From Thraustochytrium sp. TN22 (taxonomy: Eukaryota; Sar; Bigyra; Thraustochytrida; Thraustochytriidae), in the NCBI GenBank assembly GCA_013306675.1, contig JABLUY010000167.1:1-64000 (forward strand): a stretch of 64,000 bases of DNA. The letters are read 5' to 3'. The notes under the pieces are model-generated. The model ran no database searches. It was given only the letters and a program-made list of their open reading frames with translations, and had not been told where the DNA came from. Positions 1,663 to 39,065 of this stretch are shown here, piece after piece; positions within the stretch are counted from its first letter, which is position 1, and every line of letters begins with the position of its first letter. Position numbers and translations under genes: made by a program.

Positions 1663-4011
1663 TCAGTTGTTTCTGAACTCCTCGTGGAGCGTGGCGAAGC
1701 GGATGGTGGTCATGCCGCCGGAGGGCGCGGGCGAGGGCGCACTCGGCGTTGTTGGTGGTGGTGCTGGCCCTACGGCAGGTGGTAGGAGCCTGCTATTGTC
1801 GGTGGGGAGCGGGGGCAGCGGCGGTGGGCAGGTACGCGCGGGGATGAAAGGTTTGTCAGGTTCGGTGCGCTGTGAGCTCCACGACCCGAAGATGTCGTCC
1901 TCGGCAGCGTCGGAGTGCATGTCGTCGTCGTCATTCAAAAGGGTGATGCCGGCGATGTCGAAGGCTTCCTTGTTGCTGAGCGGCGCGGAAGGCCCGGGTG
2001 GGGGCAGCGGCGAGTCGGAGGGCTGCGTGTTGTTGCTCTGCACGGAGCTAAGGGAGAGGCGCGAGCGTGAGCGCACGAGTCCGAGCGAGAGGCGGGCGGT
2101 GAGCGATGCGCGATTGGTCGGGCTAGCCGGACGGCGCTTGGCGTTGAAGGAGTGTCGCTTGGACGAGCTGGGTTCGTTGCCGCGCTCGGCCTCGCCGCCG
2201 CCATTATCCGAAGCGGCTGCTGCTGCGAGCAGCGCCCTGAGGCGACCGGAGCGGTAGGCGCTGGAGGCGTAGCTCGCGGGCGGCACGTTGCTGGAATCCT
2301 GCAGCGGCGCGTTGACAAGCAGCGTGGGTGGCAGAGCGGCGGACCCCTGGGTCCCAGCTGCTAGGCTCACGGGCTGTGCAGCCGTTGCGGTTGTCGCTGG
2401 CGCTGTCGCTGGCGTTGTGGCTGTCGCTGTTGGTGCGATTGATGCGGAAATGGACGAAGGTGTCGGGGGAATTGGCGGCGGCGGCGGCGGCGGCGGCGAC
2501 GCCGCCCCGGATGCTGTTGCCGCTGCCGCGACGACCGCTGGGCTTGTTCTTCGAACACGAAAGCTGCGCGGCCGGGTCGCGTCGGCACGAGTGGCGTCGG
2601 CCGGGAGCTTGACGAGGACGCCCGTGGGACTCTCCGTGGCGCTGGAGGAAGAGGAGTTGTTGCTGTTGGGGCTCGTGCTGGAGGATGCAGACGAAGAGGG
2701 CGGAGGCGGGACGGCCGGGGGCTTGGAGGACTTGGTGTCGACCGAGTTGCGGTGACGGCGCATCCTGCTCCTCCGCTGCTGGGCGGTGGAGGAGCCGGCG
2801 CCGCCTTGGTGATGATAGTGGGCGGCGTTCGCGGCGGGTGGTCCGTGGTGGCCATTTCCGGCGCCCGATGGAAAGGCGGCGGGCGCCAGGTTGGCCTGCG
2901 CCGCGGCGACCTCGGCGCTGGCGGCCTCAATCCTGACGAGGCGGCGCTGCTGGAGGCGCTCCCGGGCAATGGAAGTCTCGTAGGCGATGTCGACGACGGC
3001 GCAGGCGGCGCGAGGGAACTGAGGCAGGTAGGTTTCGAGGAGCGACGCCAGGCGTCGGGCGAAGCCGTGGTAGCAACCCAGCGTGAGCCCGATGGTGTCC
3101 GGCAGCTTCCGAATCTGCTCCTCGCGGAAGCGGTCGAGGCCGAGCACACAGGCGTCGGTGGCGTCGCAGAGCGCGCGCTCGGCGGCGTCGAGGCGCTCTC
3201 GTTTGGTGCGCGCCTCGGCGACGCGGCCGGCAATGTCGCCCTCGTCTGGCAAGGGGTCGTCGAGCGAGGCGAGTGCGCCCGCGGTGCGCGGCGATGATGT
3301 TGATACTGATGAGGACAAGGAGGCGGAGACGCCGGCACCGGCCTGGCCTTTGCGCGGGGTAGCGGGCGTTGCGCCACCGAGCGCCGCCGCGGCAGCGAGC
3401 GTGGTGGGCGAGGCGACACGCATCTTGCAGGAGGCAGTGCCGTTGCGCGGCACGGCGAAGGAGAGGCTGGGCGCGTCGTCGTCATCGTCGGCCGCCGCCG
3501 CGGCGGCGCTGGCCTGGGCTGCGCTGCAACGCGGATGGCGCTTGCGCAGGACGGTGAGGACCTCGAGCTTCTTCTTGCGGTCATCGATGCGCGCGCGCAG
3601 CGAGCGCACGTCGGCACCGAGCGTCTCCATGCAGGGTCGCAGCGCGCCGTTGACAAAGACGGCGTGCGCGGGCTTGGAGACCGCCTCGGTGGCGGTCATC
3701 ATGCCCTGGAGCGCGCGGCAGAAGGTGGTCGGGTCGTTGCGCCCGTGCTCGGACGGGTTGGTGGGGCGCGTCACGAGGATGGTGTGGCGCGCGAGCTCCT
3801 CGGCGAGCGTCTGGCTGCAGGCGCTGAGCGCGTCCAGCGCGCCGGCCCACGCCACCATGGCGGCCTGCACTCTGCGCAGGGACCGCTCGGTCTCGAGGAA
3901 CTGGTCATGCGCGCGCTCGAACTCCTTGTCGCTCGCCACGCCCTCGGGCCCGGCGGCGCGGCTGCGGATTTGCTCCAGCAGCCTGCGCTTGAGTTTCTTC
4001 ATTTGCTTCAT
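1663..4011 (-). CDS. BAR-domain-like protein with long disordered tail
   Basis: A 782-residue protein. Residues about 1-180 and 270-370 are charged, helical and heptad-like: EFERAHDQFLETERSLRRVQ, then a segment with MTATEAVSKPAHAVF, then RARIDDRKKKLEVL, and after a low-complexity insert of about 80 residues, RTKRERLDAAERALCDATDA and YHGFARRLASLLETYLPQF. This order (helix 1, helix 2 with the LDY-like region, late helix with LP-F) resembles the amphiphysin/BIN BAR fold, a dimeric coiled coil that binds curved membranes. The rest is Ala/Ser/Pro-rich and includes poly-Pro runs that could bind SH3 domains; no SH3 domain is visible. The insert within the BAR region is unusual. It is transcribed away from the MKP1-like gene across a 2-kb GC-rich spacer. 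The family call rests on pattern only; another coiled-coil protein is the alternative. Confidence 0.5.
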   Translation of the reverse strand: MKQMKKLKRRLLEQIRSRAAGPEGVASDKEFERAHDQFLETERSLRRVQAAMVAWAGALDALSACSQTLAEELARHTILVTRPTNPSEHGRNDPTTFCRALQGMMTATEAVSKPAHAVFVNGALRPCMETLGADVRSLRARIDDRKKKLEVLTVLRKRHPRCSAAQASAAAAAADDDDDAPSLSFAVPRNGTASCKMRVASPTTLAAAAALGGATPATPRKGQAGAGVSASLSSSVSTSSPRTAGALASLDDPLPDEGDIAGRVAEARTKRERLDAAERALCDATDACVLGLDRFREEQIRKLPDTIGLTLGCYHGFARRLASLLETYLPQFPRAACAVVDIAYETSIARERLQQRRLVRIEAASAEVAAAQANLAPAAFPSGAGNGHHGPPAANAAHYHHQGGAGSSTAQQRRSRMRRHRNSVDTKSSKPPAVPPPPSSSASSSTSPNSNNSSSSSATESPTGVLVKLPADATRADATRPRSFRVRRTSPAVVAAAATASGAASPPPPPPPPIPPTPSSISASIAPTATATTPATAPATTATAAQPVSLAAGTQGSAALPPTLLVNAPLQDSSNVPPASYASSAYRSGRLRALLAAAAASDNGGGEAERGNEPSSSKRHSFNAKRRPASPTNRASLTARLSLGLVRSRSRLSLSSVQSNNTQPSDSPLPPPGPSAPLSNKEAFDIAGITLLNDDDDMHSDAAEDDIFGSWSSQRTEPDKPFIPARTCPPPLPPLPTDNSRLLPPAVGPAPPPTTPSAPSPAPSGGMTTIRFATLHEEFRNN

Positions 4012-6011
4012 CTTGTCGCGGCCGCCGTTGCTCGCGCTGGAGCGCTGGGAGCGCTAGGAGCGCTGGGAGCGCTGCCCTCGCCCTCGCCCTCGTCCTCGTC
4101 CACGCCCGCGACCAGTGCGCACTGGCAGCGGCGGCGTGCGCCAGCGCTGCGCTGCGCTGCCCTGCGCTGCGCCGCGCCGCAGGCCGCCTCTGCCTGCGCT
4201 GCCTGCGCAGGCAGGCTGTCTCTGGCTGCCCCTGGCCGCCTGCCGGCTCGTCTGGCAGCCTTGCGCCGCCGCGCGGTATCTGATTGTCCCCCTGCTGGTC
4301 GTGGGACTGCCTGCCTGCCTGCCCAGCTGACTGCGGACGTCCACGGTTTGTCGAAAAAAGTCGCCGCGGTGCTCACCGTGGCGCAAGCGGCCAGTGGGCG
4401 CAAGCAGGCTGTCCGGGCAGGGGCGTCTGCCTTGGCGAGCGTCCGGCGCGCTAGCCTAGCTAGGCTCCGCCTCGAAGACTTTCTTTCAGCCGACTGGGAG
4501 CGCTGCGCTGCGCTGCGCTGCGGTCCCGCTGCTTTGTGCCACGGTGTGTGCGCGCACCCCCGCGGCGCATACAGGCACTGCAGACATTTTGCAAGTGCCG
4601 CATTTGCCAAACTTCGACTTGTGATGCGCATCGCGTCAGTTGCGTGGCTCGCTTTCCGCCTTGGCTTTGGCTTTCAAAACGAAACGCGAGACTGAAAGTG
4701 GGGCAAGCCATGACCAGACTCACTCACTCTAGTCCGAGTCAGCCAGCTGGTTGTTGTAACTGACTCCGGTGGCGGAGGCTCTGACTTGGTTGCACTTCGC
4801 GCGGCCAGAACTTGAAGGGCTCGTGCCAGGAGGCGAGAGCGAAGCCGCACGGGGCGCGCGGCGGGCGGCGGCGGGCCGGGCCGCACGGCACGGGCCCGGG
4901 CCTCGCTCTCGGCCGAAGCGGCCACCTCGTTCCCGGCAACGGCGGCGGCGGGTTGCCCTCCCTCATCGCCACTGTCAGGCTCGTCCTGGTTTCCCTGCGC
5001 GGCCTTCGGCGGCCTTCGCCACGCTTGATTGCTCCTGCCAGGCGGCGAGCAAGCTCGCACGCTCGCTCGCCACGCTCGCCAGCCCTCCCGTTCTCGCTTC
5101 TCCGCGAGTCTCGCTTCTCCGCGAGTCTCGCTTCTGCGCGAGCTGCGCGAGTCCTCACGAGTCACCGCCCGCTCGCTCGCCCGAGCGGCGCCGAGCGCCC
5201 CGCGCCGGCCGCCGCCAGGTACGGGTCGGCCTGCGCCGGGCACGCGCTGCACGCGCGCCTCGGCCTGCCAGTGCCGCGCTAGTCCGCTTGTCCGCTGCTT
5301 GCTTGTCCGCTGCGCTCCTGCGCCGCCGCGCACCGCACGCGGCGCCGCCGCCCGCCTGCCGGCGCCTGCCGGGACTGGGGCTCGGCGGCTCGCGCGTCCT
5401 GCTCCGCCCTGCCTCCTGCAGCCAGGGCTGGCCGCCGCGCCGCGCCTGGCCTCGGCCGCCAGACTCGCTTCCGCGCTCTCCGCTGGGCGTCTGTCTGTCA
5501 CCAGGCTCTGTCTGTCTGCTGTCTTTCCGTCGCCTCGTGGTCGCTCCCGCCGCGCTGCTGCCGCTGCCTACTGTGCAGGTGCACCTCGAAGCCTGGCCAG
5601 AGGCGCCGCGGCTGCGCGACTTTGCGCCGGTTTGCGGCACTTGCGGCGCGCGGCGGCCAGTGGCGGCCGGCCTGCCCGCTGTTGTGTTGTGACTGACTGC
5701 AGCCGGCCGCGCCTCGCGCCTCGCCGCGCCGCGCCGCGCCGCCAGCTCGTTCGCGCTGCCGCCGAGACAGCGCGCGCCGCGCCGCGCCGCGCCGGCTGGC
5801 CGCGCGCCGCCGGCGGCAGAGCGGCAGCGCGGGGCGGGGGCGCGCGGGCGGCGGAGCGGCGCGCGGCGCGGCCGGCGCGCGGCGGCGCGAGCAGCAGCGG
5901 AGCAGGCGCGCGGCGGAAGCGGCAGAGGAGCAAGAGGAGGCGCGGGCGGCGCGGCGCGGCGGCGAGGCGCGGCGGCGCGCGGCGGCGGCGGCGGCGCGCG
6001 GCGCGCGGCGC
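4012..6011. other. divergent intergenic region, extremely GC-rich
   Basis: This 2-kb spacer lies between the divergent BAR-like and MKP1-like genes. It holds runs such as GCGCTGCGCTGCGCTGC, GCCTGCCTGCC, CTTCTCCGCGAGTCTCG repeats (5095-5135) and dense CGCC tracts near 5700-6010. Open frames of hundreds of codons occur on both strands but are Arg/Ala/Pro-only, as expected from GC-rich noncoding DNA. It presumably holds both promoters; no specific element can be defended. Confidence 0.6.
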
Positions 6012-13548: not shown

Positions 13549-14703
13549 TCAGGCGGCGTCCGTGCCGAGGAGCGCCTGCACGCGGTCGAGGTTCTCTGCG
13601 AGGCTCTGCTGGAGGGTGTCCAGCAGTTCACGGTCGAGCTTGGCGGCCTCTTGCAAGTCGGCCTGGACGCGGTCAAGCTCGTCCAGCCGCGCGTGCAGGT
13701 TGGCATTGTGCTGGTGAATCTCTTGCGCGGTGCGCAGACGGTCGACGATGGCAGGCAGGCTCGAGGCCACCGCATCGCAGTTGTCGAGCTTCCTGAGCAG
13801 GTCAGCGGCCTCGCGCGATGGCACGGCGCCGGCCTCGGCCTCGGCCGCGCGCCGCCGCTGCCGCAGGCGAGCCGAGTCCTCGAGCTCCTTGCTCACAGCC
13901 TTGGCCTTCTGCGCCAGGTGGCTCAGCCGGCCCTCGTCCAGCAGGCTCAGGTGCTCCTCGAGCGCGGCCACGGCGCCCACGAGCGGGCCGCGCGCGCCCC
14001 GACCCTCGCCCAGAGCGGCCTCCAGAGCGGCCACGCGCGCCTCCAGCGCGCCGGCCGCCTCCGCGTCCTCGCCGGCGCCCTGCGCCGCGTACAGCAGATC
14101 CACGCTCAGCACCTGCTGCTGCGCGTCCTCGCCGCCGGCCTCTGCCGCGCGCTGGCCCAGCCGCTGTCGAAGCGCGTCGGCACGCGCGCGGTTGAGTGCC
14201 TGTGCCGCGGCGCGCTCCTCGGCGCTGCTCTCCTCGTTGCTCACGAGCGGGCCGAGCCCCTGCTGGCCCTTGAGTGCGCCCAGCGTCCGCTGCAGCTCGC
14301 GCACGCCGCGCGTCAGCTGCTCGTACGCATCGCTGTGCGCGCCGCCGTCCTCCTCCTCGCCATCGTCGTCCGCGGCTAGGTCCTCGCACAGCTCTGCCAC
14401 CTCGGCCTGCAACCGCTGGAAGCGCTCCAGGGGCGACTCCAGCAAGGTCCCGGCCAGCTCCGGCGGTCTGCGCGCGCCGCTCGCCTTCTTGTCCACCACG
14501 AACCTCCGGCCTGCGAACACCTCGAACACGCGCTCGGGCTCCGGCACCGCCGACGCGTCCACGCCCTCGTCCTCGCGCGCCGCGCCGCCGCCCGCCGCCG
14601 CCGCGCCCCCGCCCGCCGTCGCGACGGTCGCCGCGCCGCCGCCGCCGCCGCCTTCGGCTTCCGCCACGTCCGGCGTCTCGAAGACCTCCCAGCTTGCGTC
14701 CAT
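13549..14703 (-). CDS. DCTN2: dynactin subunit 2 (dynamitin, p50)
   Basis: A 384-residue protein starting at MDASWEVFETPDVAEAE; an upstream in-frame ATG at 14820 would add 39 unsupported residues. Two landmarks match dynamitin: the N-terminal WEVFETPDV (human form DVYETSDLP) and ESPLERFQRLQAEVAELCED (human form [20 protein letters not shown]). The remainder is a series of predicted coiled coils (VRELQRTLGALKGQQGLG; VAALEEHLSLLDEGRLSHLA; ELDRVQADLQEAAKLDRELL), as expected for the p50 shoulder subunit of dynactin, the activator of cytoplasmic dynein. Poly-Gly and poly-Ala runs fill residues 17-45. The length is close to the usual 400. It implies a working dynein-dynactin system in this organism. 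Confidence 0.85.
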   Translation of the reverse strand: MDASWEVFETPDVAEAEGGGGGGAATVATAGGGAAAAGGGAAREDEGVDASAVPEPERVFEVFAGRRFVVDKKASGARRPPELAGTLLESPLERFQRLQAEVAELCEDLAADDDGEEEDGGAHSDAYEQLTRGVRELQRTLGALKGQQGLGPLVSNEESSAEERAAAQALNRARADALRQRLGQRAAEAGGEDAQQQVLSVDLLYAAQGAGEDAEAAGALEARVAALEAALGEGRGARGPLVGAVAALEEHLSLLDEGRLSHLAQKAKAVSKELEDSARLRQRRRAAEAEAGAVPSREAADLLRKLDNCDAVASSLPAIVDRLRTAQEIHQHNANLHARLDELDRVQADLQEAAKLDRELLDTLQQSLAENLDRVQALLGTDAA

Positions 14704-15644
14704 GGTCGCGCGCCGCGCCCGAACCGCGCGCGCGTCGCGCAGCAGAGGTTCGCTCGCGTGTAGGCCTCGTGCGATTGCTTTGGTCGACGCGGCGTGGACG
14801 AGATGATCAGATTGATTCACGGTTAGCTCGCCGCGCGAGCGAGCCGTGGCCGCTCGCTCGCGCCCCAGCGAGCCGTGACCGCTCGCTGGGGCGCCGCGCC
14901 GCCTTCATGAGGACGGACGTTGCGCCGGTTGCGGCGCAAGACGACTTGGCTGCGCACCGGCGCCGCGTCGAGATTTTGCGCGCGAGCCTGCCTGATGCAG
15001 GGCGCACCGGCCGAACGTCCCGTCGCCGCAGCGTGTCCCGCGGAATTGTGGCCATTGTGGCGTGCCAGCCCGGGCCTGCCCGTGGACGAGTCTCGCGGCG
15101 CACGAGCAGCACAAGAGCCAGTTGTCCGCCTTGAGGCAGCTGAGCAGGTGCCGCGCGGCTTGTGTCTCAGGCTGTGGCCAGCCCGGCCGCCACTGCACTG
15201 GCAGGCCGTCTCCACGTTCTTCGGACCGTGGCTAGGCCTACCTACTGCGAGGGAGAGTCCTGGGAGACGGCGGCCCGAATCCGCGACGTCCGGCGCGCTC
15301 GCCGCTGGATGCATGGCGGGGCGTGTTGTGTTCTCCGCGGGGAAGTTCCGGCTGCGCGCGTTGTCCCACCAGCCATGGCAGAGCGCCATGAGCGAGCAAA
15401 GCTGCAAAGGCGGTCGTGGACCGTCGTGCGATCTCGTGACACGAGGCTCGCAAGGTGGCCAAAGCTAGGAGAGCACGCGACTCGTCACAGAGGCGCGCCG
15501 CATCGCCCCGAAGCGTCCCCCCCCCTCCCTTTCAACCAACCGCCCCACCCCCCCCTCTCTTCTCCGCGCTCTCTCGTCCTCGTCACCAGCAGCCTGCAGG
15601 CCTCAATCGTGGACCAGGCAGACGCAAGCCCGCCGCACGTCACG
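14704..15644. other. divergent intergenic region, no gene seen
   Basis: About 940 bases between the dynamitin and NADPH oxidase starts. The frame upstream of the oxidase stays open back to 15162, but those 161 codons show no conserved character. Near 14826-14886 the phrase CGAGCCGTG(G/A)CCGCTCGC occurs twice. Positions 15521-15560 are pyrimidine-rich (CCCCCCCTCCCTTTC and CCCCCCCCTCTCTTCTCC), a likely core promoter or 5' UTR feature of the oxidase gene. Confidence 0.5.
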
Positions 15645-18218
15645 ATGCTGCACGCAGAGGGGGAGGAAGAGGTCGTGGCGGTCGCCGCTCCCATGCCGGT
15701 GGTCGCCGCCTACTCGACGACGCCGAGCATGCCGCCCTTGCCGCCACCCAAGCCGGCCAAGCCGAGCCACTTTGCCGCCCCCGCCGCCACGGCCACGGCC
15801 ACGGCCGCATCCTCGACTTTGGCACAGCGACAGGTGCAGCGACTCGAGGTGGAGCGTCAGCAGCATCAGCATCAGCAGCAGAAGCCCCAGCGCCAAGAGC
15901 CGCGCGGGTCCGCGAGCATCGGGTACTCGTTGTGGGCTCACAATCTCGGCTACGCGGCCGGCCTGAGCAACGTGGTTTGCGGCTTCCTCACCATCATGTG
16001 GGCGCAGGAGATTGCGGATCGGCCAGCGGCCGGCGACCTCCTCTTCGCGATAATGTTTTGCGGGCCGTACTGCGTCGTGGTGGGCCTCCTCGTGCTTGCC
16101 TGGGAGAAAGTTTACGGACTGCGGCGCGTAGATTGGCTGCCGGGCGAGGGCTCGCCATCTGGAGCGCGCTCCTGGGTACGCGCCGCGCTCTACGCGGTGT
16201 TCGCTTTTGGTGCGTTCTTCTCGTACCCAACCATGCTGGCCGCCGGCGTCATGCTCATGAGCGCCGCGGCCAATCTCGTCGCGTATCAGAACAAGGAGGT
16301 GCTCACCTCGCACAACGTTGTGCACGAGTCCTTCTTGCTGTGCAAGTGCCAAGCGTCCAAGACGGCGCCGGACGACGACACCGCGGCCGGCAAGAGCAGC
16401 GGGCGCCTGGCGCGCTTCTGGCGCCACCTGGAGGAGACCGGCTCCGTGGGCCAGGTCCTCTTCGTCGGCGTCTATGTGGCCATCAACATCGTGCTCTGGC
16501 TGCAGCGCCTGGTTTCCTGGATAAGCCTGGTGGATGACCTGCAGACGGCATGCGCGCCCACCAATCAGTACGCCTGCCTCTCGGACTTTGCGCCCTTTGC
16601 CAAGGCCTTTGGCCAGACGCTCAACTTTAATTGCAGCGTCATTTTGCTGCCTGTGCTGCGCACGCTCGTGCGCAAGCTCAACAACGTCTCCGTCACGGGC
16701 TCCTCCGCCGTCGCCAAGTACATGCCGCCGTTGCGCAAGAACATCGTCATGCACAAGTTCATCGCCATCTTCGTGCTCATCGGCGCCGTGGGCCACATTG
16801 GCTTCCACATGCTCAACCTCTGGAAGGCGCCCGAGGCGACCATGTCCATCTTTCAGGCCGGCGCATTCGTGTCTGGCTTCCTTATCACCTTCGCCATGTA
16901 CGCCATCTACACGGCTGCACAAAATCGCGTCAAGCGCTCGCACTACGAAATCTTCTGGAACGCGCACCACGGGTTTCTCATCTTCTTCGCCTGCATGTTC
17001 GCGCATGCGCCGCGCTTCTGGGCTTGGGGCTGCATCCCGCTCTTTGCCTACATTGCGGAGCGCCTCTACCGCGAGCGCAAGGGCCGCAAGAGCTTCTTCG
17101 TTGCCTCCGTCGTCTACAAGAAGCCCGTCATGTGCCTCAGCTTCTTCCCGGCGCGCGCGGGCGACTTCGTCTTCAAGGAGGGCCAGTACCTGCACCTGCT
17201 CGCACCCGGCATCTCGCCCTTCGAGTGGCACCCCTTCACCATCTCCTCGGCCTACGAGGACCTTGAAAAGAAGGACGGATACGTCACCTTGCACATCCGC
17301 GTGCAGCGCGAGGGCTCCTGGACCTGGCAGCTCTGCGAGCGCTTCAAGCAAATGGCGCCCGCCTCCGCCTGCAAGGGCGAGAACTTCTCCCTCGTGCTCT
17401 CGCACCTGGACAGCCAGGGCGTGTCGCAGCGCGGCAAGCACCTCGGTCCGGACGGCCTGCCGCTCATCCAAGTCGACGGCCCGCACGCCGCGCCAGCCCA
17501 GCACTACTCCGAGTACGATGAGGTCATGCTCGTCGGCGCCGGCATCGGCCTCACGCCCTCCTCCGCCATCATCCAGTCAGTCCTGCGCCACAAGTGGAAG
17601 AAGGGCTTCAATCCTAGCACCATCCACTTCTTCTTCGTCGTCCGCCACTCCGAGATCTTCTCCTTTCGCTGGTTCATCACGCTGCTTCACGAGCTCCAGC
17701 GCGGTGTCGCCAGCGACTACGCCGCCGGTGCCCTGGACCACGCCCGCAACCGCCTCCAAATCCACCTCTTTGTTACCAGCGCGCCCAAGGATGGCAGCCG
17801 CGTGCAGCGCGAACCCAGCGTCGCCATGGGTGCCTTGCCCGTCATGAACGCCGAGGAGAGTGCCACGCGCCAGGCAGGCATGAACGTGGACCTCGGCTTT
17901 ACCGCCGAGGACCTCGAGGTCGCCCTCCTCAACCCCACCGTCTCCTCAAAGCAGTTGCCCGCGTTGGTCGAGCAGGCCAGGGCCGATCCGAAGACTGAGT
18001 TCGCCAACCGCAAGGGCGACATCTGGATTTGGAACGGTCGTCCTCCCTGGGACGACATCTTTGCGCTCATCAAGCACAACCGCCTTCCGCACATTCATCG
18101 CGTCGGCGTTTGCTTTTGCGGCACGCCCATTATCGGCAAAGACCTCAAGACGTACTGCCACAAGTACTCTTCCGTCGACGATCACTGTCGCTTCGAGCTC
18201 CACAAGGAGAACTTTTGA
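15645..18218 (+). CDS. NADPH oxidase with an N-terminal p22phox-like module (natural fusion)
   Basis: An 857-residue protein from MLHAEGEEEV. Residues about 92-220 look like p22phox: SLWAHNLGYAAGL (human p22 AMWANEQALASGL), then CVVVGLLVLAWEKVYGLRR, then SWVRAALYAVFAFGAFF and LMSAAANLVAYQNKE (human YYVRAVLHLLLSVPAGF and IASGIYLLAAVRGE). A NOX2-like catalytic subunit starts near 265: FVGVYVAINIVLWLQ, then LNFNCSVILLPVLR. Heme ligands are H370/H441 and H384/H454, with the family spacings of 14 and 13. FAD motif HPFT is at 529, NADPH motif GAGIGLTPSS near 631, a CFCGTP motif near 824, and the C-terminus is KENF as in NOX2. It moves electrons from NADPH across a membrane to O2 to make superoxide. 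No EF-hand is visible, so control is not by direct Ca2+ binding of that type. Confidence 0.85.
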   Translation: MLHAEGEEEVVAVAAPMPVVAAYSTTPSMPPLPPPKPAKPSHFAAPAATATATAASSTLAQRQVQRLEVERQQHQHQQQKPQRQEPRGSASIGYSLWAHNLGYAAGLSNVVCGFLTIMWAQEIADRPAAGDLLFAIMFCGPYCVVVGLLVLAWEKVYGLRRVDWLPGEGSPSGARSWVRAALYAVFAFGAFFSYPTMLAAGVMLMSAAANLVAYQNKEVLTSHNVVHESFLLCKCQASKTAPDDDTAAGKSSGRLARFWRHLEETGSVGQVLFVGVYVAINIVLWLQRLVSWISLVDDLQTACAPTNQYACLSDFAPFAKAFGQTLNFNCSVILLPVLRTLVRKLNNVSVTGSSAVAKYMPPLRKNIVMHKFIAIFVLIGAVGHIGFHMLNLWKAPEATMSIFQAGAFVSGFLITFAMYAIYTAAQNRVKRSHYEIFWNAHHGFLIFFACMFAHAPRFWAWGCIPLFAYIAERLYRERKGRKSFFVASVVYKKPVMCLSFFPARAGDFVFKEGQYLHLLAPGISPFEWHPFTISSAYEDLEKKDGYVTLHIRVQREGSWTWQLCERFKQMAPASACKGENFSLVLSHLDSQGVSQRGKHLGPDGLPLIQVDGPHAAPAQHYSEYDEVMLVGAGIGLTPSSAIIQSVLRHKWKKGFNPSTIHFFFVVRHSEIFSFRWFITLLHELQRGVASDYAAGALDHARNRLQIHLFVTSAPKDGSRVQREPSVAMGALPVMNAEESATRQAGMNVDLGFTAEDLEVALLNPTVSSKQLPALVEQARADPKTEFANRKGDIWIWNGRPPWDDIFALIKHNRLPHIHRVGVCFCGTPIIGKDLKTYCHKYSSVDDHCRFELHKENF

Positions 18219-19066: not shown

Positions 19067-21262
19067 ATGGCAAGCCAGCGCTTCACGAACCTGCTGCGGC
19101 CGCTGGACCTGAATGGCGGCCGCGTGCAGCTCAAGAACCGCGTGCTCATGGGGTCCATACATAGCGGGCTGGAGGAGATCAAGACGGGCGGGCGCCTCGA
19201 GAGCATGGCGGCATTTTACGCGGCGCGTGCGCGCGGCGGTGTTGGGCTGTGCGTGACGGGCGGCGTGGCGCCCAACAATGCAGGCCGCGTCGTGTACATG
19301 TCCGCCAAGATGAGCACAACAGGCGAGCGCGATCACCATCGCTGCGTGACGGATGCGGTGCACGCGGAGGGAGGCAAGATCGCCATGCAAATCTTGCACG
19401 CTGGCCGTTACGCGTACCACCACTGGGCCGTGGCGCCGTCGGCGTTGCGGTCGCCGATCAGCATGTTCAAGCCTCGCGCGTTGTCGGCGAGCGAAGTGGA
19501 GTCGACGATCGACGACTTCGTGCGCGCCGCGGAGCTGGCGGGCGAGGCCGGCTACGACGGCGTCGAGGTCATGGGCTCGGAGGGCTACCTCATCAACGAG
19601 TTCCTCACACTCGAGGCCAACAAGCGCACGGACGCCTGGGGCGGCGACTACGCGAACCGCATGCGCCTCCCGGTGGAGATCGTGCGCCGCATTCGCGCGG
19701 CGCTCGGCCCGGACTTTATCATCATCTACCGTCTCAGCATGCTGGACCTCGTGCCGGGGGGGTCCACCTGGGACGAGATCGAACTGCTGGCGCGCGAGGT
19801 CGAGGCGGCAGGTGCCAGCATCATCAACACGGGCATCGGCTGGCATCAGGCGCGCATCCCGACCATTGCCACGGCCGTGCCGCGCGGCGGCTTCGCCTGG
19901 GTCACCAAGCGCCTCATGAGCTCCGTCGACATCCCGCTCTGTAGCGTAAACCGCATCAACATGCCCAGCACGGCCGAGGAGATTCTCCGCGACGGCTACG
20001 CCGACCTGGTCTCGCTCGCGCGCCCGCTGTTGGCCGACCCGGACTGGGTTGCCAAGGCGCAAGCCGGCGACGAGGACGGCATCAATACCTGCATCGGCTG
20101 CAACCAGGCTTGCCTCGACCACACCTTCGCCGGCAAGCGTGCGTCCTGCCTTGTCAACCCACGCGCCTGCTACGAGACCGAGCTGCGTCTCGACCCGGCG
20201 CCGGCTCAAGTGCGCGCCGCCGTCAAGGTCGCCGTTGTCGGCGCCGGTCCGGCCGGCCTGGCCTGCGCCGCCAGCTGCGCCGAGCGCGGGTTAAACGTCA
20301 CGCTCTTCGAGCGCAGCAAGACCATCGGTGGACAGTTCAACATGGCCAAGCGCATCCCGGGCAAGGAGGAGTTCTTTGAGACGCTGCGTTACTTTACGGT
20401 CCAGCTGCAGCGCCTCGGTGTTGACCTGCGCCTGGGCCAGGCCGCCGCTTCCCTCGACGAGCTCGCCGCACAGGGCTACACGCACGTCGTGCTCGCCACT
20501 GGCGTGCGCCCGCGCAAGGTGCGCTTCCCGGGCAGCGACCACGCCAAGGTCGTCAGCTACGTGGACGTCCTCGAGGGCCGCGTCCGCGTGGGCCGCCGCG
20601 TTGCCATCATCGGCGCCGGCGGCATCGGCTTCGACGTCGCCGAGTTTCTTTCGGATCCCCACGGCAAGGAGCTCACACAAGATGGCCCGGCGCCCGGCAT
20701 CGCCTCGGACGCCGACCTGCGCAACTTCGCCAACGAGTGGAAGATCGACCTCGCCAACGAGGGCCGGGGCGGCCTCATGTCCTCGTCGCCGACCCCGCAC
20801 GAGGAGTCCGCTCCGCGCGAAATCTACCTCCTGCAGCGCGGCAAGACCAAGATGGGCGCCAACCTCGGCAAGACGACGGGCTGGATCCACCGCACCGCGC
20901 TGCGCGAGCGCGGTGTTCATATGTTGCGCAACTGCAAGTACGAGAAGGTCGACGACCAGGGCTTTCACATCACCGTCAAGGGTGAGTCCCGCCTCCTGGA
21001 TGTGGACCACGTTGTCGTTTGCGCCGGCCAGGAGCCGGAGCGCGCGCTCTGGGACGCCGGCGCCGCCCCGTCCTCCTCGATTCAGCGCTTCCTCATTGGC
21101 GGTGCCGAGGAGGCTTCGGAGCTCGACGCCAAGCGCGCTATCGACCAGGGCACGCGGTTGGCGGCCACCATCGAGACCGCCAAGACCGGCGACGTATTCA
21201 ACCAGCCCGTCCCTCTTTCCGCCAAGCTCTTTGCAAAGGTCTTCTCCCTTCTTGGTAATTAG
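19067..21262 (+). CDS. fadH: bacterial-type 2,4-dienoyl-CoA reductase (FadH)
   Basis: A 731-residue protein closely matching E. coli FadH from end to end: KNRVLMGSIHSGLEE near the N-terminus, GYDGVEVMGSEGYLINEFLT with the active-site Tyr, and NTGIGWHQARIPTIAT with the active-site His. The 4Fe-4S cysteines lie in CIGCNQACLDHTFAGKRASC (C342, C345, C349, C361). A FAD/NADPH half follows with VVGAGPAGLACA, KRIPGKEEFFETLRYF, GAGGIGFD, LGKTTGWIHRTALRERGV and VVCAGQEPERALWDAG. The enzyme reduces 2,4-dienoyl-CoA with NADPH through FMN, FeS and FAD during beta-oxidation of unsaturated fatty acids. Animals and fungi use an unrelated SDR-type reductase, so a bacterial origin is likely. The start is the first ATG; no clear targeting peptide precedes the barrel. 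The C-terminus ends AKLFAKVFSLLGN, not a peroxisomal SKL. Confidence 0.92.
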   Translation: MASQRFTNLLRPLDLNGGRVQLKNRVLMGSIHSGLEEIKTGGRLESMAAFYAARARGGVGLCVTGGVAPNNAGRVVYMSAKMSTTGERDHHRCVTDAVHAEGGKIAMQILHAGRYAYHHWAVAPSALRSPISMFKPRALSASEVESTIDDFVRAAELAGEAGYDGVEVMGSEGYLINEFLTLEANKRTDAWGGDYANRMRLPVEIVRRIRAALGPDFIIIYRLSMLDLVPGGSTWDEIELLAREVEAAGASIINTGIGWHQARIPTIATAVPRGGFAWVTKRLMSSVDIPLCSVNRINMPSTAEEILRDGYADLVSLARPLLADPDWVAKAQAGDEDGINTCIGCNQACLDHTFAGKRASCLVNPRACYETELRLDPAPAQVRAAVKVAVVGAGPAGLACAASCAERGLNVTLFERSKTIGGQFNMAKRIPGKEEFFETLRYFTVQLQRLGVDLRLGQAAASLDELAAQGYTHVVLATGVRPRKVRFPGSDHAKVVSYVDVLEGRVRVGRRVAIIGAGGIGFDVAEFLSDPHGKELTQDGPAPGIASDADLRNFANEWKIDLANEGRGGLMSSSPTPHEESAPREIYLLQRGKTKMGANLGKTTGWIHRTALRERGVHMLRNCKYEKVDDQGFHITVKGESRLLDVDHVVVCAGQEPERALWDAGAAPSSSIQRFLIGGAEEASELDAKRAIDQGTRLAATIETAKTGDVFNQPVPLSAKLFAKVFSLLGN

Positions 21263-25870: not shown

Positions 25871-28171
25871 ATGACGGACGTTGAGCGCGGCGCGGAGGAC
25901 GCGGCGCTGCTCGGCGGCGACGGCGCGGCGGGCGGCGGCGGCGCGGGAGCGGCGGCGGGAGCGGCAGCAGCGGGAGCAGCTGCAGCTGCTGCAGCAGGAG
26001 CAGCGAGCGGCGGGCCCGGCGCGCCGCATGGCCATGCGGCGCGAGGCCTGGGCCGGCCCGGCGCAGCGGCGAGGACCGCCGCGGCCGGGTCGAGCGCGCA
26101 GCTCGCGTACGTGGCGCTGCTGGAGCTGAGCGCCGGCGCGCTGGTGGCCGGCGCGGTGTGCGCGGCGGCCGTGGAGGCGCTGGACGCGGCCGCTGGCCCG
26201 CGCGTGCGGCCTGCGTGCATGGGCGTGGTGCTGGCGCTCGTGGCCTGGGCGTACGCGCGCGCGGTGCGCGCGGCGTGGCGGCTTGGGCCGGTCGCGGCGC
26301 GCAGCGTCATGGTGAGCAGCCCGGCGTTTCGCGGCGCGGCCGCCCTCGCGCCGGACGGGCCGCGGCTCGCAGCCTTTTTCGCGGAGAACTACGGCCCGGT
26401 GGAGAACGTGCTGCCGTTGCTGGACGTGGGCGAGGTGGTGCGCCTGCGCAGGCTGCGCGCCGAGCTGCGCGCCAAGCTCCACGCCGCGGAGCGGGAGCAC
26501 CAGCGCTGGCGGCCGCTGCACGGCTTCGTGGCGCGCCTGCCGTGCTGCCGCACGAGCCGCCGCATGGCGCGCCGTGCGGGCGAGCGACGACAGGACCGCC
26601 TGCAGCGCTGGATGGACCGCATCGACGAGCGCCTCGCGGACCTGGACACCGCGCACCAGGTCGAGGCACTCGGGTGCGCCGTCGTCACCTTTGAGTCGCC
26701 CGCGGACGCCGCCACCGTGCTGCGGGACGGCCTCGCCGTGGGGTCGCACACGCCGGCCGCCGAGGGTCCGGCCGCGGAGGAGGACGAGGACGAGGACGGC
26801 TTTGTGTTTTTCGACGGGCTTGACCCGGCGCATGGCAGCGACGACGACGACTCGCTTCCGTCGCCGCTGCCGGCCGCCCTGCGCCGCGCGCGCGGCGGCG
26901 CGGTGCGTGATCCTGCGCACGGCTGGTGGATGTCGCCGGGCCGCGAGCTGCGCACGCGCTTTGGCGAGGATCTGCAGCCCATCTTCGCGCGGCCGCCGCC
27001 CGAGCCAGAGGACCTCAACTTCGAGGCCATGCGCGCCGGCGCCGAATTCGCCCGCTCCTCCTGGCAGCGAGAGGTCGGCGTCCTGGCCATGGCTGCGGTG
27101 GCCGCGGTGGCGGGCTTCTTCGCGAGCGCCATCCTTGTCATGCTGGCAGCGGCCGAGGACGACCGCGCCGACGCCTCCTTCCACGGCTACCACTACCACG
27201 CGGTGTCCTCCGAGGCCGACGGCTTCATGGCCTTTGTGGTGGCGGCCGCCATCTCCGCCGCCACTGTTTACCTGGGCCTGCTTGCCGCGGGCCTCGCGGG
27301 CCAGCGGGCGCGGCCCACGTACTCACAGGCCGACGCGGACGCGGTCTCGGCTGCCGCCCTCGTCACGCTCGCGCACTGGTTGGCCCTGTATCTGGGCGCG
27401 GTCCAGGCCGGCCCTGGCGCGGCCAGCGTGCTCTTCTGGCACGTCATCCTGCTCCACGTTGGCGGCCTGGCGCACGCGGTCTACCGTCTAGTCACGCGCA
27501 CGCGCACCGGGCCGCGGCTAGGCCTACTGTACGCCGAGGCGCTGGCGCTCCTGGTGGCGCCCGCGCTGGCGAGCGCCACGAGTGCCGCCGCCCTCCTGTG
27601 GCCGGCGCTTGCCAGCCTCGCGCGCCTCATGCTGGAGGACCTGATCAGTGCGTCCCAGCGGAACGAGCCGCCCCAGGGGGCGGGGCCCGACGCCGCTTTC
27701 GCGACGCTCTCGGTGCTCCCGTGGCGTGCGGTTGCGGTCGCGTCACTGCCGGCGCTGAGGGACCTGGCGGACCTGGGGGCGCGCCAGGGCTTCTTTAGGC
27801 CAGAGGGTGGCAACCTCTTTGCCACGATCTGCTTCGGCTTCGTGCTGGCCGCCGCGCTCGCCTGGACCTGGACCGGCAAGGTGCGCCAGCTTCGATCTCG
27901 CCTGCCAGCGGGCGTGGCGGCCGTTCCGCAAGACGATGCGCCAGCGCAGCGGCGCGAGGGTGCCAGCGGCTCCAAGGGTCACGTCGCGCCGGCGCCGTCC
28001 ACTGAGGCGCGCGGCGTGAAAACCTTTATTGGCGCTGAGTGGAGTGCGCTGGCGACGCTCGCGCGTCAGGCCTCGGAGACAGGCGGCCGCACGTATCGCT
28101 TGCCGCCTCTGCGCGACCCGCAGTACGGCAGTGCGCCCGTGGACGAGCCCGTCACACCCAAGGTGCTCTAA
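25871..28171 (+). CDS. multi-pass membrane protein, OSCA/TMEM63 (DUF221)-like
   Basis: A 766-residue protein. After an Ala/Gly-rich N-terminus come two or three hydrophobic segments (AYVALLELSAGALVAGAVCA; MGVVLALVAWAYARAV). A cytosolic region of about 280 residues has the order seen in OSCA/CSC1 channels: RSVMVSSPAFRG, then FFAENYGPVENVLPLLDVGE, a charged coiled coil, GCAVVTFESPADAATVL, then PPPEPEDLNFEAMRAG (compare the family's VTF-S and APEP-DI-WENL). At least seven hydrophobic helices follow (GVLAMAAVAAVAGFFASAIL; GFMAFVVAAAISAATVYLGL; FATICFGFVLAAALAWTW). Family members are mechanically or osmotically gated cation channels. The sequence is divergent and Ala-rich, so the call rests on the order of landmarks. 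A generic transporter is the alternative. Confidence 0.5.
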   Translation: MTDVERGAEDAALLGGDGAAGGGGAGAAAGAAAAGAAAAAAAGAASGGPGAPHGHAARGLGRPGAAARTAAAGSSAQLAYVALLELSAGALVAGAVCAAAVEALDAAAGPRVRPACMGVVLALVAWAYARAVRAAWRLGPVAARSVMVSSPAFRGAAALAPDGPRLAAFFAENYGPVENVLPLLDVGEVVRLRRLRAELRAKLHAAEREHQRWRPLHGFVARLPCCRTSRRMARRAGERRQDRLQRWMDRIDERLADLDTAHQVEALGCAVVTFESPADAATVLRDGLAVGSHTPAAEGPAAEEDEDEDGFVFFDGLDPAHGSDDDDSLPSPLPAALRRARGGAVRDPAHGWWMSPGRELRTRFGEDLQPIFARPPPEPEDLNFEAMRAGAEFARSSWQREVGVLAMAAVAAVAGFFASAILVMLAAAEDDRADASFHGYHYHAVSSEADGFMAFVVAAAISAATVYLGLLAAGLAGQRARPTYSQADADAVSAAALVTLAHWLALYLGAVQAGPGAASVLFWHVILLHVGGLAHAVYRLVTRTRTGPRLGLLYAEALALLVAPALASATSAAALLWPALASLARLMLEDLISASQRNEPPQGAGPDAAFATLSVLPWRAVAVASLPALRDLADLGARQGFFRPEGGNLFATICFGFVLAAALAWTWTGKVRQLRSRLPAGVAAVPQDDAPAQRREGASGSKGHVAPAPSTEARGVKTFIGAEWSALATLARQASETGGRTYRLPPLRDPQYGSAPVDEPVTPKVL

Positions 28172-28270
28172 GGAGAATGTATGTATCTTAGCAAACTTGC
28201 GTGCGTCATACGGTAGCACTATCGTATCAGGATGTTTCAGGTTCTTGGGCTCTCTGTCTCTTGTGCATGG

Positions 28271-29698
28271 TCAGGCCGAGGCGTCCTTGGCGTCGCCATC
28301 ATCATCGTTTTCGTCGTCTCCCTCCTCGTCCTCCTCATCCTCCTCGTCGCTGCTCGAGTCCGAGTCGGTGCCGAAGATGCCCTTGATGCCCTCCAGCTTG
28401 GAGTCGTCCTGCGGCGTGGCAAACTCAAGCTGCGAAATGTCGACGGGCTCGAGCGCCTTCTTGGAGGACTCCTTGAGCTGGACCTCGGGCGGCGGCGCCG
28501 GGCGGCAAAAGTGGATGAACTCGACCTTGTCACGGTAAAACTCGGTGAAGAGGTCGCTGTGCTTTTTGAAGATGCGGAAGCACATGGTGCGGAAGCCCTT
28601 GCGATGCTTGGTCTGGCCACCGTACGCCACGATCTGCGCGGCAACAAAGGCGACGCGCAGCTTGATGGGCGGGCACGGCAAGAAGTCGCGCGAAAAGGCA
28701 GGGTCCTCGTAGTTGGCGTCTCCAACGACCCAGCTCATGGCAATGCGCGGCTGCGCGGGCCGCTGCGGGCCGAGCGTGGAACGGCGCTGCACGTGCGAGC
28801 CCCAGTGGATGATGCGGTGCGAGAAGTGCCACGCGGAGCCCGGCGGGCAGGGCAACGCGCGAATGCTCTGATAGGCCTGCGGGTCGTTGGCAAAGATCTC
28901 CTTGAGCGGGTCCACGTCCTGGCGGTCCGCCTGATGGAAGAGCGGGTCCGCCGTCGCCGGCACCACGTAGAGGCACGAGTTGTTTGGGCCCGCGTCAGTG
29001 AGCGCGAACCAGGTCGTGCTGAGGCGCGAGGTGCCGTCGGCGCGAAAGGACTCTGGCCCCGAGCCCATACGGTCGCGGTGCGGGCCCCAGCCGCGCTCGC
29101 CGCGGTCCGGCTCCACATACCACGCATACATGTCGCCGATGAAGCGCGAGCCGCCCGTGGCCGCCTCGAGGCGCGCCGCGGCGCCAGCCACGAGCTCCCA
29201 CGCCTCGTCGAAGATGAAGATGAACGACGCTGGCCACCCGTGCTGCATGAGCCGCACCACGCCGAGCGCCAGCGCGTGGACCTTCTCCGCGTGGTCCGGG
29301 CCCAGCCCCAGATCCTCGTGCGTCATGTGGAAGAAGCCATTCTCCGCAAACTCTTCGCGCCGCGTCTGCGCCTGCTCGTTCCACGCCTCCGCTTCCTGCG
29401 CCGCGCGCTTCGCCGCGCGCTGCACGATGTCCTCCTCGCCCACGTGCAGGTGCGGGCACACCTGGCGCCAGTACGCCGCGTCCTCCAGCGTCTCGAGCAG
29501 CTGGTCATCCGCCGCCAGCCCTGGCGCCGCCGCCGCGTCCGGCGCGGGCAGCCTGGCGCCCGCCGCCGCCGCCGCCGCCGGGCTCGCCGTCGCCGCCGCC
29601 TCGCCCATGGTCCTCGCCCTCTTGGTCTGCGGCGCTGCTGCCTGCTGTGACTGCTGCGGCGTGCCGCGGCGCTTGGCACGGCAGCCGTCCCGAGCCAC
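28271..29698 (-). CDS. PhyH-like Fe(II)/2-oxoglutarate dioxygenase
   Basis: A 475-residue protein; an alternative start at 29608 (MGEAAATASP) would drop a basic, Gln-rich N-terminus of 30 residues. The core (about 70-390) has the phytanoyl-CoA dioxygenase pattern: GWGPHRDRMG gives the HxD iron pair, STTWFALTDAGPNNSCLYVV the jelly-roll centre with the typical N-(S/G)-L-VVP turn, and WHFSHRIIHWGS the distal His region, with RIAMSWVVGD following. Fe(II), 2-oxoglutarate and O2 use is inferred from these ligands; the substrate cannot be read. The last 50 residues are an acidic tail (DSDSSSDEEDEEDEEGDDE), unusual for lipid PhyH enzymes and more like nuclear or chaperone-bound proteins. It lies 3' to 3' with the membrane-protein gene. 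Confidence 0.7.
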   Translation of the reverse strand: MARDGCRAKRRGTPQQSQQAAAPQTKRARTMGEAAATASPAAAAAAGARLPAPDAAAAPGLAADDQLLETLEDAAYWRQVCPHLHVGEEDIVQRAAKRAAQEAEAWNEQAQTRREEFAENGFFHMTHEDLGLGPDHAEKVHALALGVVRLMQHGWPASFIFIFDEAWELVAGAAARLEAATGGSRFIGDMYAWYVEPDRGERGWGPHRDRMGSGPESFRADGTSRLSTTWFALTDAGPNNSCLYVVPATADPLFHQADRQDVDPLKEIFANDPQAYQSIRALPCPPGSAWHFSHRIIHWGSHVQRRSTLGPQRPAQPRIAMSWVVGDANYEDPAFSRDFLPCPPIKLRVAFVAAQIVAYGGQTKHRKGFRTMCFRIFKKHSDLFTEFYRDKVEFIHFCRPAPPPEVQLKESSKKALEPVDISQLEFATPQDDSKLEGIKGIFGTDSDSSSDEEDEEDEEGDDENDDDGDAKDASA

Positions 29699-30240
29699 TC
29701 ATGGTCACTCTCTATCTCTATCAGTGACGCACTGGCAGACTCGGACAGGGACCAGGACTCGGAGGCGCCGGCAATGCCATCGCAGAACCAGGCGGAGAAC
29801 TCCTTCAAGCGCAGCAAGACGCTGCGGCACCCGAACGTGCTGGCGGACCAGGACCAGGACCGTACCAACAGCCCGGGCACCTGCGCGGAAACTCGCGCGC
29901 AGCCAAAGTGCCCAGCGTCCACTTGAGCTGTATGGTAGCCAAGTTAGCGCGCAAAAGACCGAGCACCAAAGCTCTCGGACAAGGCCAGATGAAAAGTGAA
30001 AATCGTGATGGTGCAGTCACACGGCGGCGTCACACGAAATGGGATCAAAGCGCGGGCATCCCGTGCTCCACGTGGCGTCGGCGTCGGCGTTAACGTCGAC
30101 CCGGCGGAGGTGATCAGAGCCGTGCGTCGCTTGCTTCGGTTTGTGCTGGTTTGCTGGCCGGCTGGCTGGCTACTCGAGTCTCTACCTCTAACTTGGCGAA
30201 GGCAAGGAAATGTATACGAAGGACCTGGGCTTGGGCGTGT
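29699..30240. other. intergenic, no gene seen
   Basis: About 540 bases between two minus-strand genes, so it should contain the promoter of the dioxygenase and the 3' end of the RING gene. No motif can be defended. Confidence 0.5.
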
Positions 30241-31746
30241 TTACTCGGCATCGTCCAGGACGATGGGATCCTGGGGTGTCCCGGTGCCCGTCCCGGCGCT
30301 GGAGCTGGTCGGCGTGGAGCGCGCGGCCTGACGCAGGTCCTGGACGGCGTCGGCGTCGTTCACTTGCAGAACGGGGCGGCGCTGGCGCGAGCGTGAGCCC
30401 GAGCGGCGGCTGCCATAGGTTGTGGACGCAAAGGCGGTGGTAGAGGACGCGGAAGAGGAGCCGAGCTCCAAGGGCGCAAAGGCGTCCGTGCTTGGCCAGG
30501 CGGAGAGCGCGTGGACTCCGCCCGACGCGAAGATGCGCTCCGCAAAGGCCGCGACAAGAGGCGCGAGCACCTCGCCCACGGAAAGGGCGTCGGTGGCTCC
30601 AGGCGGGCCGGAAGGTGGTACTGGTGATGGCGACGACGACGACGAAGACGACGACGACGAGGAGGAGGACGAGGAGGACGAGGAGGACGAGGACGACGAG
30701 GAGGATGAAGAGGACGAGCTCGAGGACGAGCTCGAGGACGCGGGGGCGCGCACCGAGGCGGGCTGGCCTTGGAGGGAGCCGCGGCGGCGCGTGGCTGGGC
30801 CCTCGGGGCTCGGCGTAGCGCCGTCGTCCAGGCCGGACATGCCGGGCGCGAACTGGGTCCGGTGCACATAGTTGATGCGCAGGCCGAGCGAGCGCGCGAC
30901 GAGCGCAACGTGGTCGAGGAAGTCGTGGATGTCGTCGTCAGACTCCTCGTCCTCGCGCTCGAGCGTGTCACGCAGCTCGCGCGGCGCGACGACCTTGGAG
31001 GCGCCAGTCTTGCTGGAGCGCAGGCTCTTGACCTCGCGCTTGCAGAGCGGGCATCGGCAGCTGCGCTGCAGCCACTTGTCGATACAGCCGTAGCAGAAGC
31101 GGTGCTCGCAGGAGCTCAGCATGCCGCGCTCTTCGATGGAGTCGAGGCAGATACCGCAGGGGTCCTGCTCCGCGGCGGCGGAGGCCGGGTTGGCGGGCGG
31201 CGCGCCGGCCGCGACCGGCGTGGTCTGTGCAGGCGCCGCGGGCGCGCTCGCGGACGGGGCGAGCGGGACGCGCGGGAGCGGGGCAGCCGCGGCGGTGCTG
31301 GTGCTGGTCACGCTGACCGTACTGGTGGCCGTGGAGGGCGTCGCTGAGGCGAGAGTCGCGGCGCGCTCGCGCTTGGGTCGCGCGGACGCGACGCGGCGCA
31401 GCTTGCTAGGCGGCGCGCCAGCGCCCTGCGCCGCGCAGGCAGAGCTGGCAGAGCTGGCGCCGGCGCGCGAACTAGGCGCCGCCGCCGGGTCCTGTTGCGC
31501 GAGGTCGTCCGCAGCGGTTTCCAGGCGCAGGGCAGCGTGGCTGTTTCCGGCGGCGCAGGACGCCGCGTCCGCGTGCTCGCGGCGGCGCTTGCGGTGTTTG
31601 CGCATGTGCTCGGCGCCGGCGCCTGCGAGCGCCGCCGCCACGTCGTGTTGCTTGCCCTCGCTGCCGGCCCTGGCGAGCGCCCTGCGCCCGCGCTTGTTGC
31701 TCGTCTCGGCGGCGTCCGCGTCCGTGCCGGGCCTCGCGCGCCGCAT
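30241..31746 (-). CDS. RING-finger protein, probable E3 ubiquitin ligase
   Basis: A 501-residue protein. A C3HC4 RING is at about residues 195-235: CGICLDSIEERGMLSSCEHR, FCYGCIDKWL, then CRCPLCKREV, with all eight zinc ligands present. The RING is followed by KSLRSSKTGASKVVAPRELR and an acidic segment with DDDIHDFLDHVALVARSLGL and RINYVHRTQFAPGM, a pattern reminiscent of the region after the RING in PHRF1/Topors-type proteins. A run of more than 40 Ser residues lies near 340-385. The N-terminal 190 residues are basic and Ala-rich with possible nuclear-localisation signals (KHRKRRREHAD). The C-terminus has SYG-RRSGSRSRQRRPVLQV and then an acidic end. An E3 role is inferred from the RING; substrates are unknown. 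Confidence 0.75.
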   Translation of the reverse strand: MRRARPGTDADAAETSNKRGRRALARAGSEGKQHDVAAALAGAGAEHMRKHRKRRREHADAASCAAGNSHAALRLETAADDLAQQDPAAAPSSRAGASSASSACAAQGAGAPPSKLRRVASARPKRERAATLASATPSTATSTVSVTSTSTAAAAPLPRVPLAPSASAPAAPAQTTPVAAGAPPANPASAAAEQDPCGICLDSIEERGMLSSCEHRFCYGCIDKWLQRSCRCPLCKREVKSLRSSKTGASKVVAPRELRDTLEREDEESDDDIHDFLDHVALVARSLGLRINYVHRTQFAPGMSGLDDGATPSPEGPATRRRGSLQGQPASVRAPASSSSSSSSSSSSSSSSSSSSSSSSSSSSSSSSSSSSPSPVPPSGPPGATDALSVGEVLAPLVAAFAERIFASGGVHALSAWPSTDAFAPLELGSSSASSTTAFASTTYGSRRSGSRSRQRRPVLQVNDADAVQDLRQAARSTPTSSSAGTGTGTPQDPIVLDDAE

Positions 31747-32504: not shown

Positions 32505-32558
<54 letters not shown>

Positions 32559-34746: not shown

Positions 34747-34785
<39 letters not shown>

Positions 34786-35555: not shown

Positions 35556-35587
<32 letters not shown>

Positions 35588-38419: not shown

Positions 38420-38454
<35 letters not shown>

Positions 38455-38671
38455 CCGCCACAGCCGGTCTCGGTTGCTGCTGTGCCTGCTGCTGTGCCTG
38501 CTGCTGCGCCTGCGAGGCGACGACCGGCTGCGGCGCTACCTGGCGCACGACCGCACCGGCCTTGATGGGCGTCTGGATCGCATGATTTGTCGTCGCAGGA
38601 GCCGCTGGCTTGGCCGTCGCAACCGCACTCGAGGCCGCGCTCGCAGGCGCCGCCGACGCCGCCGGTGCCGC

Positions 38672-38715
<44 letters not shown>

Positions 38716-39033: not shown

Positions 39034-39065
<32 letters not shown>

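Follow-up and report, generated by a model that had tools for sequence, protein, structure and literature searches.

The window analyzed here is a 64,000-nucleotide stretch of the genome of Thraustochytrium sp. TN22, with a guanine plus cytosine (G+C) content of 0.678, located on a contig labelled C74 in an assembly of 37.9 Mb and 453 contigs. The subject of this report is a gene on its forward strand at positions 15645-18218, in which a single intact frame joins an NADPH oxidase (NOX) core to upstream hydrophobic stretches that fit four helices. An initial annotation of the sequence had proposed that these helices are a p22phox-like subunit fused to NOX. The comparisons described below make it probable that the fusion is real and that the module is a divergent p22phox. 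The features of the gene are as follows, with residue numbers counted from the first methionine.

15645..18218, +, reading frame of the fusion gene: 857 residues and a stop, intact, no intron required
15732..15764, +, proline-rich stretch PPLPPPKPAKP, residues 30-40, from the translation (counterpart in the paralog, PPKPPPKPQK)
15918..16298, +, p22phox-like membrane module, residues 92-218, from a hydropathy profile that fits four helices and from sequence comparisons
16299..16430, +, linker from the p22-like module to the NOX core, residues 219-262 (third-position G+C of 0.95 over 16311-16430)
16431..18215, +, NOX core, residues 263-857: haem-binding membrane domain, flavin adenine dinucleotide (FAD) domain, NADPH domain and terminal KENF
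16752..16754, +, haem ligand H370 (NOX2 H101), from the alignment to human NOX2
16794..16796, +, haem ligand H384 (NOX2 H115), from the same alignment
16965..16967, +, haem ligand H441 (NOX2 H209), from the same alignment
17004..17006, +, haem ligand H454 (NOX2 H222), from the same alignment
17229..17240, +, FAD motif HPFT, residues 529-532, from the NOX2 alignment and a string match
17535..17558, +, NADPH-binding motif GAGIGLTP, residues 631-638, from the NOX2 alignment and a string match

The gene, its NOX core and a paralog

The open frame extends from 15144 to 18218, and translation from the ATG at 15645 yields the 857-residue protein. Third-position G+C is 0.82 in the N-terminal segment (15900-16310) and 0.88 in the NOX core, and it is 0.70 upstream and 0.59 downstream of the gene. 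Across the segment, base composition at the three codon positions looks like that of coding sequence. When scored with the codon choice of the core, the segment reaches -0.06 in frame versus -0.49 and -0.59 in the other two frames, while the core scores 0.27 on its own codon choice, which served as the training set. The proline-rich stretch near the N-terminus matches PxxPxK, the pattern of class II ligands of SH3 domains.

Three Pfam families, Ferric_reduct, FAD_binding_8, and NAD_binding_6, match the protein beyond their cut-offs, and no EF-hand family is among the six families listed at a limit of E 10. By sequence, the core belongs to the NOX family and to its calcium-independent group, which lacks EF-hands. 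The alignment to human NOX2 holds 155 identities in 480 aligned residues (32%), and all four haem histidines align with their NOX2 counterparts, as had been anticipated. H388 is the counterpart of NOX2 H119, and S410-G411 of T178-G179, so that T178 is replaced by serine. The CG and C-terminal phenylalanine of NOX2 are retained, and the chain ends in KENF as in human NOX2. The inter-haem aromatic residue F215 of NOX2 is also kept, but is a valine in the paralog described below. The core had been called NOX2-like. Human NOX2 is indeed its best match in the Protein Data Bank (PDB) at 1.5e-36, but NOX5 follows at 2e-36, and because these E-values are practically equal they do not place the core nearer to NOX2 than to NOX5. 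The core had also been described as complete and as following the segment directly. It is complete in haem histidines, HPFT, GAGIGLTP, and KENF, but the last hydrophobic stretch of the segment ends at residue 214 and the first of the core starts at 268, about 50 residues further on.

A search of the assembly with the window protein (E ≤ 0.001) returned one other gene, on contig C375 at about 150,148-153,108. The core of this paralog is 44% identical to the window core (1.1e-151), and the N-terminal segment lies upstream in the same 1016-residue frame (27%, 1.8e-7; 30%, 1.4e-7 when the segment alone was the query). The paralog begins with an SH3 domain, for which both PF14604 (9.3e-9) and PF00018 (2.4e-7) exceed the cut-off, and continues with a weak WW match (0.0056, under the cut-off), a proline-rich stretch, the p22-like helices and the NOX core. 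A genome search from the segment of the paralog (E ≤ 10) returned only the paralog itself and the window gene (2.4e-7). A third genome match of the segment, on contig C156, had an E-value of 1.72 and an internal TGA, and was taken as chance. Because two contigs carry the same join, a misassembly or a wrong frame is unlikely, and the conservation of the segment at the protein level argues against transcripts that omit it.

Comparison of the module with p22phox

Human p22phox forms a heterodimer with NOX2 and docks the SH3 organiser p47phox (PMC9711523, PMC3591440). The three p22phox-like strings on which the fusion was first proposed each occur once in the protein: WAHNLGYAAGL at residues 97-107, SWVRAALYAVF at 176-186, and LMSAAANLVAY at 204-214. 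The segment is 28% identical to human p22phox and 29% identical to the segment of its own paralog. Its pairwise score against human p22phox exceeds those of all 749 E. coli and all 205 own-genome hydrophobic stretches of equal length; the decoys are overlapping stretches from six-frame translations, four scoring schemes were used, and the z-scores against the E. coli set range from 4.3 to 6.2. Shuffles that preserve hydropathy, either locally or by residue class, match this score between 0 and 27 times in 3000 trials across 18 combinations of matrix, mode and null, with 3000 shuffles per null. The joint score of window and paralog is equalled by 1 to 23 of 3000 shuffles.

A profile built from the segments of the two copies only (A2) was compared with 177,635 PDB sequences at E ≤ 10. 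Four matches were returned, of which the top three are p22phox (E 1.9, 4.5, and 4.5), and these are every p22phox sequence seen in the PDB except a 25-residue tail peptide. In hhalign, A2 aligns with human p22phox over 116 columns with a probability of 50 and an E-value of 1.6e-4 for the single comparison. Human p22phox outscores all 216 hydrophobic decoy stretches from E. coli and the own genome, the best of which reaches a probability of 8.7 over 17 columns. A MAFFT alignment of window, paralog and human p22phox retains the register and has 14 invariant columns. The window-human alignment likewise holds 14 columns identical in all three sequences, a number attained in none of 762 decoys (maximum 13) and in 7 of 1000 shuffled versions of human p22phox. 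Identity to human p22phox occurs at 14 of 32 paralog-invariant columns and at 16 of 74 columns elsewhere (Fisher p 0.02).

A further agreement lies in a buried polar network. Human p22phox cages a network of N11, E53, R90, H94, and Y121, which are highly conserved and are disease hot spots (PMC9711523). The alignment of the window segment to human p22phox was made before this published network was known to us. It assigns the following residues to the network positions.

15939..15941, +, H99, in the place of p22phox N11, helix 1
16104..16106, +, E154, in the place of p22phox E53, helix 2
16179..16181, +, R179, in the place of p22phox R90, helix 3
16191..16193, +, Y183, in the place of p22phox H94, helix 3
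16272..16274, +, N210, in the place of p22phox Y121, helix 4

In the window-paralog alignment the paralog carries the same five residues, though identity extends to only 35 of the 121 aligned columns. Nine polar columns are invariant between the two copies, and five of these nine are the network positions. When the helices are slid independently by up to seven places, five invariant polar positions arise in 8 of 50,625 combinations. Among decoys aligned to human p22phox, none of 749 has five polar residues at the network places and one of 749 has four. When the paralog is aligned directly to human p22phox as a pair, R, Y, and N fall in place, but the residues of the first two network positions do not.

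Identity of the module and proposed mechanism

A number of results weigh against p22phox identity. A significant match to CYBA profiles, whose absence the initial annotation had named among the results that would refute it, did not appear: PF05038 is unlisted for both the window protein and the paralog at a nominal Pfam limit of E 10, at which the filters of the program remove most matches above about 0.1. A search of the PDB with the single segment did not return p22phox, and a search of the whole genome with human p22phox returned weak matches at four other places, with E-values between 0.036 and 1.3, and not the fusion. The A2 matches are not significant by E-value, with best single-stretch i-Evalues of 62 and 130, and the alignment shown spans only profile columns 55-131, that is, the second half. 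The hhalign value of 1.6e-4 is for a single comparison, while decoys get to 0.0038. The paralog segment alone is at chance against human p22phox, being equalled by 105 to 1818 of 3000 shuffles, by 39 to 220 of the 749 E. coli decoys and by 20 to 69 of the 205 own-genome decoys, and helices 1-2 are out of place when it is aligned pairwise to human p22phox. The enrichment of human identities at paralog-invariant columns is weak at the p-value given. In the network, E53 and R90 are identical, but the other three residues are substituted by H, Y, and N, and Q13 of p22phox is not kept in the alignment. The proline-rich region follows the helices in p22phox but precedes them here. In the core, R54 of NOX2 is a lysine, the TXXT motif of p22phox-binding human NOX reads TAAQ in the window protein (CAAH in its paralog), and the cysteines of loop E, which form a disulphide in those enzymes, are absent from the alignment to NOX2. 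The TXXT motif touches p22phox in human NOX2 (PMC9568551). The window protein thus lacks both of these marks of the p22phox-dependent NOX1-4 subgroup. Finally, single-sequence AlphaFold2 models of residues 86-263 (mean pLDDT, the predicted local distance difference test score, 47.5) and 86-480 (44.1) place low-confidence helices where expected, but both folds are too low in confidence for use, and Foldseek with the first model gave no match at E 0.001.

Several other searches are neutral or were set aside. A CYBA profile scan of the own genome gave no match and is uninformative, since 14 controls likewise gave none. A stand-alone p22phox was not found in the genome by six-frame, intron-blind searches with human p22phox or the segment of either copy. 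An NCBIfam scan of the window protein and the paralog gave weak flavoprotein rows only, under cut-off. Searches of viral and genome contig collections found no relatives, but say little because each relied on just two to six short peptides as patterns. The sole match of the single-segment PDB search, a complex I subunit (E 5.9), and the weak Pfam rows within the segment (DUF2721, 0.22; zf-CDGSH, 0.12; Cg6151-P, 0.84) were attributed to chance. One of the four weak human p22phox matches, on contig C385, was rejected for low-complexity sequence in the surrounding frames.

The strongest alternative is a membrane extension of four helices, unrelated to p22phox and born in this lineage, an anchor or a cap like helix M0 of DUOX1, which came to resemble p22phox by convergence. 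It draws on the missing CYBA profile match in both copies, the chance-level score of the paralog alone and the loss of several NOX2 residues that contact p22phox; in addition, p22phox occupies the place of DUOX1 M0 (PMC9711523). Convergence does not readily account for p22phox ranking first in the PDB search with the two-copy profile, for the hhalign separation from 216 of 216 decoys, for the five buried polar positions that are invariant and in register, or for the 14 three-way identities, and we regard it as unlikely. Still less credible is a metal (ferric) reductase carrying additional helices in place of a NOX that makes superoxide. Extra N-terminal helices are frequent in protist and plant ferric reductases (PMC3591440), and the window protein has lysine for R54 and serine for T178 of NOX2, yet it keeps H101, H119, and G179, three of the four marks of superoxide producers given in that source, and the paralog keeps all four. 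Moreover, the best PDB match is NOX2, and the three other ferric-reductase-domain genes of the genome were not returned by the module search. The join could also be artificial, with core transcripts or proteins that begin after the module or with a segment that is non-coding, and the less core-like codon choice of the segment would fit this; but the single open frame, the coding-like composition throughout the segment and the recurrence of this join, conserved at the protein level, in a paralog from a different contig make it highly improbable.

On balance, profile comparison, decoy ranks, the polar network and the second fused gene support the proposed fusion. The proposal is weakest in the missing CYBA profile match, in its basis of two copies from one genome and in the low-confidence structural models. 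The gene is probably a real fusion of a NOX core to a four-helix module, and a divergent p22phox is the likeliest identity of that module. From the sequence we infer its fold, topology, packing, superoxide production and SH3-dependent control. The product would be a one-chain NADPH oxidase without EF-hands, composed of an N-terminal proline-rich tail, a p22phox-homologous four-helix module, a linker and the NOX core. Since both ends of human p22phox are cytosolic and NOX2 starts in the cytosol, such a fusion would keep the topology. The module most likely packs on helices 3-5 of the NOX core, like the separate p22phox in the human complex, a placement suggested by homology only because the AlphaFold2 folds are unusable. 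It would act in cis to stabilise the core, and the one-chain design would enforce 1:1 assembly, as the initial annotation proposed. The N-terminal proline-rich stretch may assume the docking role, held beside the core by the module, and electrons would pass from NADPH to FAD, through two haems and on to oxygen on the far side.

The SH3 domain of the paralog precedes the proline-rich stretch, which suggests either an off state by self-binding or binding between the two fusion proteins. A bolder reading, which we offer only tentatively, is that of an all-in-one phagocyte-type oxidase, in which single chains combine the catalytic core with p22phox and, for the paralog, with the function of the SH3 organiser. 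The SH3 domain would bind the proline-rich stretch of its own or its sister protein and keep the enzyme off until released, and the p22phox-NOX pairing would be older than the stramenopile-opisthokont split. If the p22phox identity holds, a fusion in such a distant lineage would provide gene-fusion evidence for the NOX-p22phox pairing and for its earlier origin, before that split and contrary to the opisthokont-only view. A single-chain oxidase would also let p22phox function be studied by mutating one gene, and in the SH3-bearing paralog the connection of SH3 docking with activation could be tested inside one protein.

Related systems and other genes of the genome

The fusion resembles the human NOX2-p22phox complex (PDB 8gz3, 7u8g) in its four haem histidines, FAD and NADPH motifs and terminal KENF, and its module retains E53 and R90 with polar residues at the other three network positions. 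It differs in having one chain instead of two, in the proline-rich region before and not after the helices, and in the absence of the TXXT motif and loop E disulphide. The fungal pairs NoxA-NoxD/Pro41 and NoxB-Pls1 also combine a calcium-independent NOX with a membrane partner (PMC9421330), but there the partners are described as separate proteins. Like the paralog, a NOX of Naegleria gruberi has an SH3 domain within its chain, but inside the NADPH-binding domain and not at the N-terminus, and the available text of that source mentions no p22phox-like part for that chain (PMC3591440). Helix M0 of DUOX1 is a same-chain membrane part at the place of p22phox (PMC9711523), but it is a single helix and is linked to EF-hand and other regulatory domains.

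From homology searches, p22phox, p47phox, and p67phox have been read as opisthokont-restricted (PMC9421330). Paralogues of p22phox have not been reported to date (PMC9568551), and its origin has been called unknown (PMC3591440). A p22phox-like protein of Dictyostelium is divergent and disputed (PMC2121648). A temperature-responsive "superoxide NADPH oxidase" was listed in a thraustochytrid transcriptome (PMC3986615). Among the papers listed by searches of the open literature, with subscription literature mostly outside the search, none describes a fused p22phox-NOX by its title and abstract start, and a comparable fusion may already have been annotated by others.

Upstream of the fusion gene, on the opposite strand (13549-14820, -), lies a gene of the dynamitin family (PF04912, 2.6e-34). 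On the other side, at 19067-21262 (+), a single 731-residue frame combines Oxidored_FMN and Pyr_redox_2, an architecture that presumably resembles bacterial 2,4-dienoyl-CoA reductase.

Elsewhere in the genome, frames on C417, C64 (two), and C101 are by eye of ferric-reductase or ferredoxin-reductase types. At positions 80000-89000 of C64, two ferric-reductase-type frames in tandem, 805 and 813 residues long, carry a hydrophobic stretch late in the chain, as described for plant and stramenopile reductases (PMC3591440). A frame on C343 with a PX domain and, after it, an SH3 match (1367-4441, -, of the region read) was considered as p47phox and set aside, having one SH3 match and not two, and appears sorting-nexin-like by eye. 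A region of C124, at 26703-35603 (-) and 38227-41142 (+), holds a frame of PfaA-type polyunsaturated fatty acid (PUFA) synthase and a neighbouring frame. The PfaA-type frame, of 3044 residues, passes the curated cut-off for omega-3 PUFA synthase PfaA (2539.7 bits with its in-frame neighbours versus 1010.1), and a 2083-residue frame with weaker matches lies near it on the opposite strand. Such an arrangement fits a thraustochytrid and is indirect support for a stramenopile. A 5691-residue frame on C410 has several partial matches to the PfaA profile and may be another multimodular synthase, of polyketides or fatty acids.

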